Positions 28,594 through 60,728 of a DNA stretch of 64,000 bases are shown in pieces; within the stretch, counting starts at the first letter, position 1, and each line of letters begins with the position of its first letter. Source of the DNA: Actinacidiphila acidipaludis (lineage in GTDB: Bacteria; Actinomycetota; Actinomycetes; Streptomycetales; Streptomycetaceae). Location: the NCBI RefSeq assembly GCF_019890725.1, contig NZ_JAINZZ010000003.1, positions 248,001 through 312,000 on the forward strand, in the 5' to 3' direction. The notes under the pieces are model-generated. The model made no database searches, was not told where the DNA came from, and worked only from the letters and a program-made list of their open reading frames with translations. Position numbers and translations under genes: made by a program.

Positions 28594-28636
28594 GCCCCGC
28601 CGCGCGCGGCCGGGCTGAGCCCCGCCGCGCGCGGCC
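28587..28636. repeat. 25-bp direct duplication covering the AhpD-like gene stop codon
   Basis: The unit starting GGGCTGAGCCCCGCCG occurs at 28587 and again at 28612, immediately adjacent. The first copy includes the TGA stop (28591-28593). Confidence 0.9.
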
Positions 28637-28704
28637 GCGGCGGACGGCGCACGACGGGCGGGCACCGGTGACCGGTGCCCGCCCGTCCGTCGCGCGCGCC
28701 GGGG

Positions 28705-45633: not shown

Positions 45634-47490
45634 TCAGGCGCACACCTCCTGGTCCCCGGTGACCGCGGTGCCGGCCGGCTGCGGGCGGGCCTTCGGTGCG
45701 ACCGGGGTCACCTTCGTGAAGTCCGTGCCCAGCGTGACCTTCATCACCGCGCCCTGACCCGGGGCCGGCTGGAGCCGGGCGCCCGGCAGCGCGGTGGCCA
45801 GCGTCCGCGCCGAACGGTCCCAGCGCGGGTCGTACTGGATGATCGTGCGGCCGGTGCGCACCAGCGCGGTGGTGGCCGGGCCCGGCGTCGCGAACCCGGT
45901 GGCGTGCAGCGCCTTCTGCGTGGACGCGGCCAGGCCGTTGGTCGCGGTGCCGTTCAGGACCCGCACGCTGATCGTCGCCGGATCGACGTCCACCGGCGTG
46001 CCGGCGGCCGGCCGGTGCGGGGCGCTCTTCGGCGGCGGCGGGGCGATCGGCTGGTCGGCGCGGATCGCCGCCCACAGCCGGCCGGCCTTCGCCGGGTCCC
46101 ACTTCACGGTGGACCCGATCCCGGGCACGGGGTAGTCGAGGACGCTCAGCGGGACCGAGACGAACTCCGAGGAGCCCGGCGAGAAGCCCTTCATGCCCTG
46201 GGCGAGCGCGATCAGGTCCGAGGTGCTCAGGCCCTGGTCGACCCGCACCGAGTCCAGCACCGTCGAGGCGACCCGGCTCAGCTCCAGCGGGTTGCTCAGC
46301 ACCGACCCGCTGGTCATCTTGTGGATCACCTCGGCCAGGAACTTCTGCTGCCGCTGCATCCGGCCCAGGTCCGCCGAGCCGTCCACATGCCGGGACCGCA
46401 CGTACTGCAGGGCCTGGCCGCCGTCCAGCGTGGTGGTGCCGGCGGGCAGGTCCAGGCCCGTGAAGGAGTCCTTCAGCGGCGTCACCGTGCACACCGGTAC
46501 TCCGCCGATCACGTCCACGGCCTTCATGAAGCTGGTGAAGTCGACCTCCAGGTAGTGGTCGATGTGCACACCGGTGAGCTGCTCGACGGTGTGCACGGTG
46601 AGCTTCGGGCCGCCCAGCGCGTACGCCTGGTTGATCTTCGCCGGATGGGTCCCGGTGACCGCGGTCGGCACGGCCGAGGTCCCGGCGGCCGGGTCCGAGG
46701 GGGACGCCGATCCCGGGACGGGCGGCGCCGAACCCGCGGCGCCCGCCGTGGACCGGGACACCCGGGACCCGGGCGAGATCCGCAGCGTCGAGGCGTCGGG
46801 CAGCCGTACATAGGTGTCCCGCGGGATGCTCACCACGCTCGCCCGCCGGTGGTCCGCCGACAGGTGCACGAGCATGATCGTGTCCGTGCAGTGGCAGGGC
46901 GCGCCGCCCAGGTGGAACTCCCTCTTCTCGTCCGGCGCCAGCCCGTCCCGGCCGTCGGTGCCCACCAGCAGGAAGTTGGTGCCCTTCGTGCCGTGCGGAC
47001 GCCCCTCCATCCCACCGAAGGCGTCGACCCGGTCGATGGAACCGCTCACGTCGTCGACCACGGCGTGCCCGAGCCCGCTCGCGGTGATCACCAGCAGCGC
47101 CAGACCGCCGGCCAGCCGCAGACCCCAGCGCTGGGGACGCCGCTGCCGGGGAGCCGGCCGCGGCGCGGGCCGCCGCGGACCCCGCGGATCGGCGACCCGG
47201 CGGCCGCGCGGATCGGCCGGGGGACGGATCCGCGGGTCGGCGGTCTGCCGGCCCCGGGGATCGGCGGTCTGCCGGCCCCGGGGACCCGCCGTCGCCCGCC
47301 CTTGCGGGGCCCCGGCCCTGCGGACCCGCGGATCGGCCGGCGCCTGCCCGCGTCCGTCCGCCGGTGGCCTCCCCCGGCCCTCGACGGGCGGTCGCTCGCG
47401 GCGCGGTGCGGGCGGGCGGCCGCGGACATCGACGGACGGGGGACGTCGCCGGGTGGGCGGCACGGGCAGGACCTCCGGGGGAGGGGGCAC
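45634..47490 (-). CDS. LCP family protein 3, with long Arg/Pro-rich cytoplasmic part
   Basis: A 618-residue LCP protein. The first 120 residues are Arg/Pro/Asp-rich with repeats of the type RGRQTADPRGRQTADPR, unlike the other LCP proteins here. One membrane segment follows (LRLAGGLALLVITASGLGHA). The LCP domain has LLVGTDGRDGL, VVSIPRDTYVRLP and VRSRHVDGSADLGRMQRQQKF, all key residues present. An insert of about 45 Ser/Gly/Pro residues lies after the IPRD motif. A LytR_C domain (ISVRVLNGTATNGLA near residue 490) is at the end. It is divergent from the glycosyltransferase gene. GTG start is uncertain, with no clear ribosome site. Confidence 0.88.
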   Translation of the reverse strand: MPPPPEVLPVPPTRRRPPSVDVRGRPPAPRRERPPVEGRGRPPADGRGQAPADPRVRRAGAPQGRATAGPRGRQTADPRGRQTADPRIRPPADPRGRRVADPRGPRRPAPRPAPRQRRPQRWGLRLAGGLALLVITASGLGHAVVDDVSGSIDRVDAFGGMEGRPHGTKGTNFLLVGTDGRDGLAPDEKREFHLGGAPCHCTDTIMLVHLSADHRRASVVSIPRDTYVRLPDASTLRISPGSRVSRSTAGAAGSAPPVPGSASPSDPAAGTSAVPTAVTGTHPAKINQAYALGGPKLTVHTVEQLTGVHIDHYLEVDFTSFMKAVDVIGGVPVCTVTPLKDSFTGLDLPAGTTTLDGGQALQYVRSRHVDGSADLGRMQRQQKFLAEVIHKMTSGSVLSNPLELSRVASTVLDSVRVDQGLSTSDLIALAQGMKGFSPGSSEFVSVPLSVLDYPVPGIGSTVKWDPAKAGRLWAAIRADQPIAPPPPKSAPHRPAAGTPVDVDPATISVRVLNGTATNGLAASTQKALHATGFATPGPATTALVRTGRTIIQYDPRWDRSARTLATALPGARLQPAPGQGAVMKVTLGTDFTKVTPVAPKARPQPAGTAVTGDQEVCA

Positions 47491-58117: not shown

Positions 58118-59068
58118 GTGCCAGCCATCCCCGCCAGCCGCGCCGGTGGTACGTCCACCGCCACGCGTCGGTGGGTGCCGTCCGGGCCGCTCGACGTCCG
58201 CCGCACCGTCATGCCGCTGCGCCGCGGCGGGACCGACCCGGCGTTCCGCATCACCCCCGACGGCGCGGTGTGGCGTGCCAGCCGCACCCCCGCCGGCCCG
58301 GCCACGCTCCGCATCACCGGCAGCCCCGCCGCACTGGAGGGCCACGCGTGGGGGCCCGGCGCGGACTGGCTGCTCGACGCGATGCCCGGCATGCTCGGCG
58401 CCCACGACGACCCTTCGGCCTTCGCCCCGCGCCACCGCGTCGTCCACGCGTCGCACCGCCGCAACCCCGGGCTGCGGCTCACCCGCACCGGTCTGGTCCT
58501 GGAAGCGCTCATCCCGGCCGTCCTGGAGCAGAAGGTCACCACCATCGAGGCCTACCGGGCGTGGAAGCTGCTGCTCTTCCAGCACGGCGAGCCGGCGCCG
58601 GGCCCCGCGCCCGCCGACCGGATGCGCGTCATGCCCGACGCCCGCGGCTGGGCCCGTGTGCCCTCGTGGGACTGGCACTGCGCGGGCGTCGACAACAAGC
58701 GCGCGTCCACCGTGATGCGGGCCGTCCGCCTCGGCGCCCGGATCGACGCGCTGGCCGCGCTGGAACCGGCCGAGGCGTCGCGCCGCCTCCAGTCGGTCCC
58801 CGGGATCGGGCCGTGGACGGCGGCGGAGACGGTGCAGCGCAGTCACGGCGCGGCCGACGAGGTGACGGTCGGCGACCTGCACCTGCCGCATCACATCGGT
58901 TTCGCGCTCACGGGGGAGCGGCGGTCGGACGACGAGACGATGCTGGCGCTGCTGGAGCCGTACGCCGGGCAGCGGCATCGGGCTGCCCGTCTGATCGTGC
59001 TGGGGGCGCCCAGTCCGCCTCGGCGGGGGCCGCGGCTCGCCCCCAATCCGCCGAGCTGGCGGTCCTGA
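58118..59068 (+). CDS. DNA-3-methyladenine glycosylase-like HhH-GPD protein
   Basis: A 316-residue base-excision repair enzyme of the AlkA type. Seen: helix-hairpin-helix LQSVPGIGPWTAAETVQRS near residue 225 and the Asp-bearing VTVGDLHLPHHIGFAL near 250, where the Asp sits at the catalytic position of the GPD motif. N-terminal third is beta-rich as in AlkA. The GTG start at 58118 lacks a clear ribosome site, and the coding frame is open further upstream, so the start is uncertain. The gene ends 31 bp before a nested palindrome. Confidence 0.82.
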   Translation: MPAIPASRAGGTSTATRRWVPSGPLDVRRTVMPLRRGGTDPAFRITPDGAVWRASRTPAGPATLRITGSPAALEGHAWGPGADWLLDAMPGMLGAHDDPSAFAPRHRVVHASHRRNPGLRLTRTGLVLEALIPAVLEQKVTTIEAYRAWKLLLFQHGEPAPGPAPADRMRVMPDARGWARVPSWDWHCAGVDNKRASTVMRAVRLGARIDALAALEPAEASRRLQSVPGIGPWTAAETVQRSHGAADEVTVGDLHLPHHIGFALTGERRSDDETMLALLEPYAGQRHRAARLIVLGAPSPPRRGPRLAPNPPSWRS

Positions 59069-59099
59069 GGCACGTTGGGCCCGTGCGTGTGGGGTGCCC

Positions 59100-59403
59100 C
59101 TGTCCATAGGCTCGGGCAGCCCGGGCCCGGCTTGTTTTCCCACCCACCCACCCGCCCGTGACCGTCGTCCGTCAGGTGTGGGTCACTTGTTCATGGGTCG
59201 GTGCCAGTCCGGGAGTGCCCCCGCAGGAACTGTGCACCCGCCCGCGTCGAGGAGTGGACGAACGCGGCACGCACAGTTCCGAGGAGGTGCTCCCGGACTG
59301 GCCCCGACCCACCCACCAGAGACCCGAGCCTGACGTAAGGGAGCAACGGGTGGGCGGGTGGGTGAAAAAAGCCCTAGGCAGGGCTGCCCGAGCCGATGGA
59401 CAG
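59100..59403. repeat. 304-bp nested imperfect palindrome between converging genes
   Basis: Outer arms 59100-59122 and 59381-59403 match at 22 of 23 positions (CTGTCCAT, one mismatch, then GGCTCGGGCAGCCC). Next come C-rich/G-rich arms (CACCCACCCACCCGCCCGT against the complement of ACGGGTGGGCGGGTGGGTG). Inner arms 59195-59235 and 59271-59310 share GGGTCGG, GCCAGTCCGGGAG and GGAACTGTGC in the same order. The centre is 59236-59270. No open frame with a ribosome site lies inside. The right arm ends three bases before the fbiB stop codon. Confidence 0.9.
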
Positions 59404-59405
59404 GC

Positions 59406-60728
59406 TCAACGCACCGCCAGGAACGCCTCAGGACCCCGCCCCACCCGCGCCGGAGGCGAACCCGCGGGACGGCCGACGGCCACCGCCCCCATGGGATCCC
59501 AGTCCGACGGCAGATCCAGAACCTCCCGCACCACGTCGCGGCAGAACATCGTCGAGGACACCCAGGCGGAGCCGAGCTGCTCGCCGGCCAGCGCCACGAG
59601 GAAGTTCTGCACGCCGGCCCCGGTGGCCACCACGAACATCTCGCGTTCGGCGGCGGCCCGGCGCTCGTCGGGATAGGGGTGGGCGCCGTCGGCGACCAGG
59701 CAGGGGACCACGAGGTAGGGGGCGCGGCGCAGCACGTCCCCGCGGCGGAGCCGCTTGGTGACGCTGGACTCGGAGAAGCCGTCGCGGCGCAGGTCCGCCT
59801 CCCAGGCGTCCCGCATGGCGTCGAGGAGCCGGGTCCGGACCTCGGGCGTCTCCAGGAGGACGAACCGCCAGGGCGTGGTGTGGTGCGGGGCGGGCGCGGT
59901 GACCGCGAGGGCGACGGCCCGGCGCACGGCCGCGGGGTCCACCGGTTCGTCGGTGAACTCGCGGACGGTGCGGCGCAGCGAGACGGCCTCGCGGACCGCC
60001 TCGGAGGTGCCGAGCCGGAACATGTCGTCGGCGGCCCGCCGGACCAGCGGGCGGGCTCCGGGGTCGTCGGCGCCGGGGTCGGTGTCGACCGTGCCGGGCA
60101 GGCCGCGGACGACGGCCACCGGTACGCCGGAGGCCTTGCCCTTGACGAGGTCGCCGGCGGCGGCGAGTTCGTCGGCGGTCGCGGTGACCGTCACGTTGAG
60201 CTCGTTGCCGTGGCTGTCCCGGGCGCCGCGCAGGTCGTCCAGGACGTGTACGCCGGAGGCCCCGACGGCCACGTCGGTCAGGCCGTTGCGCCAGGGGCGG
60301 CCGAAGGTGTCGGTGACGACGACGCCCACGCGGACGCCCAGCTCCTGGTGCAGTCCCTCGCGGATGCGCCGCGCCGAGGCGTCCGAGTCCTCGGGGAGCA
60401 GCAGGACCGTGCCGGCCGCGGTGTTGGAGGCGTCGACGCCGGCCGCGGCCATCACGAAGCCGTGCCGGGTCTCCACGATCCGGGTGGGGCCGCGGCGGGC
60501 GACCAGGCGGACCGCCTCGGCGTCGATGGCCGCCTCGCGGTCCTCGGCGTGCATCACGCGGCCCTCGGCCTTGCTGACGATCTTGGAGGTGACGAGGAGC
60601 ACGTCGCCGTCGGCCAGGTTCACCCCGGTCGCGGCGATCAGCTTGGCGATGTCGTCGCCGGGCTGCACCTCGCCGATGCCGGGGACGCCGAACACCTCGT
60701 AGCGGGCGCCGGACGCGGGGGCGTTCAC
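59406..60728 (-). CDS. fbiB: Bifunctional F420 gamma-glutamyl ligase/reductase FbiB
   Basis: A 440-residue two-domain enzyme of coenzyme F420 synthesis. N-terminal CofE domain ([53 protein letters not shown], residues 1-235) adds glutamates to F420-0. C-terminal nitroreductase-like domain ([19 protein letters not shown] near 250, [28 protein letters not shown]) binds FMN and reduces dehydro-F420-0 in actinobacteria. GTG start overlaps the fbiA stop by GTGA, so they are translationally coupled. Confidence 0.94.

Follow-up and report, generated by a model that had tools for sequence, protein, structure and literature searches.

A Nested Palindrome beside fbiB in Actinacidiphila acidipaludis as a Probable Remnant of a Dispersed Foldback Repeat

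The gap between fbiB and a convergent gene in Actinacidiphila acidipaludis, studied here within a stretch of 64,000 nucleotides (the window), is filled by a large nested palindrome. We take this palindrome, with modest confidence, to be a partly deleted copy of a non-autonomous and non-coding dispersed foldback repeat, which has been spread and homogenised by a putative trans factor. The unit common to the repeat family, which has copies in both Actinacidiphila and Streptomyces, is a 97-nt hairpin, here called H, with an asymmetric internal loop in which CCCCGCAG faces CGAGGAG, as defined by an alignment of 38 copies. Although few bacteria have been studied as thoroughly as the streptomycetes, we found no description of the H repeat in the open literature, a scope outside which most subscription papers fall, so that an earlier description is possible. 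The repeat offers a REPIN-like population without a RAYT, its invariant loop could be used as bait for the putative factor, and its series of nested palindromes shows growth and decay of long foldback DNA.

Results

Geometry and Folding of the Palindrome

The two converging genes end with stop codons at 59068 (+) and 59406 (−), and the single imperfect palindrome at 59089–59414 therefore occupies nearly the whole of the 337-bp gap between them (Table 1). Two long pairs of inverted arms, one of 51 nt with 76% identity (the outer arms) and one of 88 nt with 74% identity (59135–59222/59283–59370), are nested in mirror order, and the predicted fold is one rod, in which every one of the 129 pairs is placed around the same centre (mean position 59252). 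The folding energy is −127.6 kcal/mol for DNA (z = −13.3) and −238.1 for RNA (z = −15.4), and in neither case was it reached by any of 100 dinucleotide shuffles. With z values of −13 to −15, a chance origin of the palindrome is ruled out. The raw energy alone is unexceptional, because a GC-rich stretch in another gene gap of the window (47091–47431, 86% GC), which forms several hairpins and is non-palindromic, folds equally low (−238.9), and raw energy was dropped as sole criterion.

A preliminary description of the window, made from the sequence alone, had reported a large nested imperfect palindrome at this place, and the shuffled controls and the one-rod fold bear this out. Its blocks and coordinates were correct, the outer pair that it put at 59100 and 59403 falling inside the 51-nt arms. 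It had also named the neighbours: fbiB is confirmed by its two Pfam domains, and the glycosylase, with no Pfam match at 1e-3, is unconfirmed.

Four terminator-like sites were found in the region, where 0.2 are expected. A GC hairpin with a T-tract is present in the outer arms only, and H itself has no T-tract. Each outer arm has a terminator-like hairpin that reads inward, so transcription of the two neighbouring genes is probably also terminated by the window copy. In this it resembles the bidirectional intrinsic terminators; it differs from them in that the inner 97-nt hairpin and the family to which it belongs far exceed what termination needs. Between other converging genes of the window (28594–28704) there is a perfect 17-bp terminator-like hairpin, GACGGGCGGGCACCGGT/ACCGGTGCCCGCCCGTC, of ordinary appearance.

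Table 1. Parts of the window copy and neighbouring genes (positions in the window)
Feature	Positions	Strand	Basis or remark
Whole nested palindrome	59089–59414		Arm search and folding
Left outer arm	59089–59139	+	Recurs in own genome at C87 and C127
Right outer arm	59364–59414	−	Mirror of left outer arm
Intrinsic-terminator-like hairpin and T-tract, inward from glycosylase-like gene	59109–59137	+	Terminator scan
Intrinsic-terminator-like hairpin AGCCCtgccTAGGGCTTTTTTC, inward from fbiB	59361–59385	−	Terminator scan
Left C-rich hairpin layer (CCCACCCACCCACC...)	59140–59200	+	
Right C-rich/G-rich hairpin layer (CCGACCCACCCACC...GGGTGGGCGGG), mirrors left layer	59303–59362	+	Kept in A. rubida, where H is gone
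Hairpin unit H, conserved core of the repeat family	59205–59303	+	Covariance model R1, 90.9 bits
CCCCGCAG, 5′ side of conserved internal loop	59219–59226	+	
CGAGGAG, 3′ side of internal loop	59280–59286	+	
Inner stem GAACTGTGC, covarying	59227–59235	+	
Inner stem GCACAGTTC	59271–59279	+	Pairs with 59227–59235
GGGAGT, putative deletion junction (H1 and centre lost)	59212–59217	+	Sequence comparison with C87
Convergent neighbour, DNA-glycosylase-like by reading	58175–59068	+	No Pfam match at 1e-3
Convergent neighbour fbiB	59406–60728	−	PF01996 and PF00881

Structure and Covariation of H

On the 3′ side of the loop, all 38 copies of one alignment (A1) have CGAGGAG without change, and all 20 of another (A2) have CGAGGA. 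Distant copies from sister genera have kept the CCCGCAG/CGAGGA loop, in one copy as CCCACAG, while their stems are rewritten. Over the 97 positions of H there are 20 predicted pairs with 96.4% of the cells paired; changes on both sides have occurred in 11 of these pairs, and a covariation as high was obtained in none of 500 shuffles. This alone does not prove selection, because template switching from arm to arm can also keep the arms of a palindrome complementary. A search of Rfam gave no family at gathering score, only sub-threshold matches such as MIR8670.

Copy Number and Distribution

With the palindrome as a 341-bp query, at least ten further places were found in the own genome, and many others in its relatives, H being common to nearly all. 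By covariance model, with at most 118 candidates scored and with rough E-values, there are 48 copies in the own genome and at least 102 and at least 99 in two relatives, and H is absent from 14 of 35 congeners. A second model found H in 45 of 200 Streptomycetaceae genomes, patchily and in 5 of 17 genera; the first model found none in 15 genomes from two other families of the order. One carrier, A. rubida, belongs to the same GTDB genus as the window genome (Actinacidiphila), not to Streptomyces sensu stricto, and it was the only species matched by a pattern scan with fixed stem length, that stem length being absent from the others. A plasmid or phage origin was rejected, as no phage or plasmid record matched the repeat. 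Since many copies lie less than about 200 bp from contig ends in three genomes (G012, G014, G015), the repeat probably breaks short-read assemblies, and it may be a practical cause of the breaks seen in drafts.

Dispersed copies with inverted repeats and without an open reading frame are what a conventional MITE, moved by a DDE transposase and bounded by terminal inverted repeats and target duplications, would give, and H is like MITEs and larger palindromic repeats (e.g., ERIC and NEMIS) in being a short, non-coding, dispersed foldback in intergenic DNA. It is unlike them in that its conserved part is central and that the family is without demonstrated fixed termini or target duplications. 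The outer layers differ between genomes and between copies, which speaks against fixed termini; several sites of A. rubida have counterparts without H in the own genome, and at the H-free sites examined, where the flanking intergenic DNA is too diverged for the ends to be placed, no target duplications were found; and no matching autonomous copy occurs in the loci read. A conventional MITE is thus very improbable. The preliminary description had suggested a MITE-like dispersed element and a search for dispersed copies with target duplications. The dispersal holds, with 48 own copies, more than 90 in relatives and a site that is empty in most of the genus, and the many copies expected from such a search were found, but not the duplications.

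Architecture and Genomic Placement

All 77 tested sites are intergenic and none lies inside a gene, where genes beyond the window were called by a simple codon-usage caller and the names of neighbours, except the Pfam-supported fbiB, are readings. When two H units form a cluster they are arranged head-to-head (36 of 36 clusters), never in the opposite order, and most paired units are separated by about 85 bp. Such a pair is the usual form both in the window genome and in A. rubida. A further early proposal, a fused pair of tail-to-tail elements, was right insofar as full-length versions contain two H units and wrong as to their orientation; the window copy keeps one of them.

The H pair is enclosed by further mirrored layers, which differ between genomes. 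At C87 and in the window these layers are terminator-like arms; A. rubida and most pairs of the own genome have arms of the GGGGCGCGGGGAACTGCGCG type. The full-length element at C87 folds as a single rod of about 540 nt. The whole looks like hairpins set in one another's centres. H1 is missing from the own-genome singles, in which the left arm passes straight into the centre at GGCAGT, the six nucleotides with which H1 also starts.

A second very common dispersed hairpin, GGGGCGCGGGGAACTGCGCGACAAGCC, forms mirrored arms flanking most H pairs (in G012 and at own-genome loci such as L191, L192 and L055); in many cases a different hairpin, GGTCCCCCAGACTTCGTCCGGGAGGTGCCCCC, has taken the place of its loop. 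In two genomes (G027 L238, 3002–4931; G024 L247, 3001–4850) two H units face each other across a gene, 1.7 kb apart and in the reverse of the usual head-to-head order. This gene reads as alpha/beta-hydrolase-like, and the gene between two H units at C85 as lipoprotein-like; both were rejected as transposase candidates.

Replication template switching typically yields mirrored layers nested in one another and deletions at short repeats, and together with gene conversion acting on GC-rich terminator hairpins it could generate the palindromes as a by-product, with neither an element nor selection. The replaced loops of the accessory S hairpin would also fit. Local errors alone would, however, not be expected to produce a fixed head-to-head pairing, an internal loop invariant across two genera, or copies that are dispersed among unlinked sites and yet up to 95% identical along about 420 bp, and we regard an origin of this kind as improbable.

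Shared Sites and Concerted Evolution

Some positions of H are shared between species. Five species have it between genes read as tmk and holB, five next to a pepA-like gene, four next to a def-like gene and three at the window locus. At four orthologous loci H is 85% identical, compared with 56–67% for the 120-bp flanks, which is close to the 51–59% of shuffled partners. At the same time, the closest relative of an H copy is found in the same species for 141 of 142 copies, and orthologues resemble each other less than do the most similar non-orthologous copies within one genome. From this follows that the H copies evolve in concert: their positions are inherited, while the sequence comparisons indicate that the copies themselves are overwritten or replaced within each genome.

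The main rival explanation is a role in gene regulation or termination, with H as a selected RNA structure (a 3′-UTR stabiliser, a processing site or a terminator) that is kept site by site and whose loop is bound by an RNase or another protein. It accounts for the strong covariation of the stems, for a conservation of H far above that of its flanks, for the terminators in the outer arms and for the enrichment of copies in convergent gaps (22 of 77 copies, against 9 of 107 other long gaps). On the A-to-B strand of H there are, moreover, 45 cells with G-U pairs and 14 with A-C mismatches, cells which were counted from the same alignment and are not independent of the covariation. An RNA function does not readily explain why orientation relative to tandem genes is near random (12 co-directed, 9 opposed), why H is inverted in G030 at pepA-cobS in relation to its relatives, why the copies of a whole genome are homogenised, or why some species have at least 99 copies and 14 of 35 congeners none; nor was there an Rfam family to which H could be assigned. 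Of the folded structural RNA put forward in the preliminary description, the covariation has been substantiated, and the near-random orientation and the flip at an orthologous site speak against it. We consider an RNA function rather unlikely.

Discussion

Comparison with REPINs and a Possible Mechanism

REPINs occur as doublets, are placed between genes, evolve in concert and decay to singles (PMC3116915). H resembles these elements and the REP-BIMEs of Pseudomonas and E. coli in several respects: the inverted doublet is its apparent unit, it is intergenic and homogenised within species, its stems show compensatory changes and its singles appear as decay products. It differs from them in its invariant asymmetric internal loop, in its nesting within other palindromes and in its actinomycete host. 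A REP is defined by a body of 20–40 bp with a GTAG or CGTC tag (PMC3733652), whereas the H unit is several times longer, 97 nt, and has neither tag in the aligned consensus. In a search for Y1_Tnp (PF01797), control genomes were positive and none of the H-rich genomes G000, G012, G014 and G015 was. The head-to-head doublets, single remnants and compensatory changes notwithstanding, a REPIN moved by a RAYT is rejected for these genomes to the extent that PF01797 is a guide, and we hold it to be scarcely credible. The H family is REPIN-like in architecture and not a REPIN by the tests of RAYT, size and tag.

The dispersed foldback repeat, which is our preferred explanation, would work as follows. 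Pairs of H would be copied, and would replace one another, in the form of folded single-stranded DNA, and a putative trans-acting host factor would recognise the folded H through its CCCCGCAG/CGAGGAG loop, in a REPIN-like manner but without a RAYT. Single copies would be decay products that arise by deletion between short direct repeats. As a tentative extension, to which we attach distinctly less confidence, H may be the substrate of an undescribed non-RAYT system that recognises the folded hairpin by its loop. Such a system would copy or overwrite the head-to-head pairs throughout the chromosomes of streptomycetes and insert them into the centres of existing palindromes to give nested foldbacks.

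In integron attC sites it is the fold and the bases left unpaired, and not the sequence, that are recognised. Recognition of H by fold and unpaired bases, as proposed here, would be analogous in mechanism only; no integron boxes were noticed in H by eye.

Several observations weigh against a dispersed element. No mobilising enzyme was found, and no transposase family recurs beside H copies in the loci read, where the recurrent neighbours are syntenic housekeeping loci only. At the sites examined no target duplications could be made out in the diverged flanks. Sites kept by three to five species, with H so much better conserved than its flanks, are what a selected function would give; ordinary gene conversion could homogenise the copies, and arm-to-arm template switching could imitate compensatory change.

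History of the Window Site

The window site can be followed through the genus, as fbiB is present in 35 congeners, of which about 30 loci were fetched and checked. At this locus G015 has a full-length version with two H units, the more distant G002 has one H in the same orientation, and A. rubida has a 130-bp remnant in which H is missing and the flanking C-rich layer is kept. Most other congeners have a short gap and no element. At C87, H1 and H2 both begin with GGGAGT, and in the window the left arm joins H2 at GGGAGT. The simplest reading of this junction is a deletion between direct repeats, and the window copy looks like what remained after loss of H1 and the centre at the GGGAGT repeat. 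The copy would then sit inside the outer terminator-like arms of the two converging genes, and the later loss would have spared one H, the C-rich layers and the outer arms that mirror each other, which together make up the nested palindrome. In G010 (L101), the orthologous gap between the glycosylase-like gene and fbiB contains a gene that, by reading only, is transposase-like.
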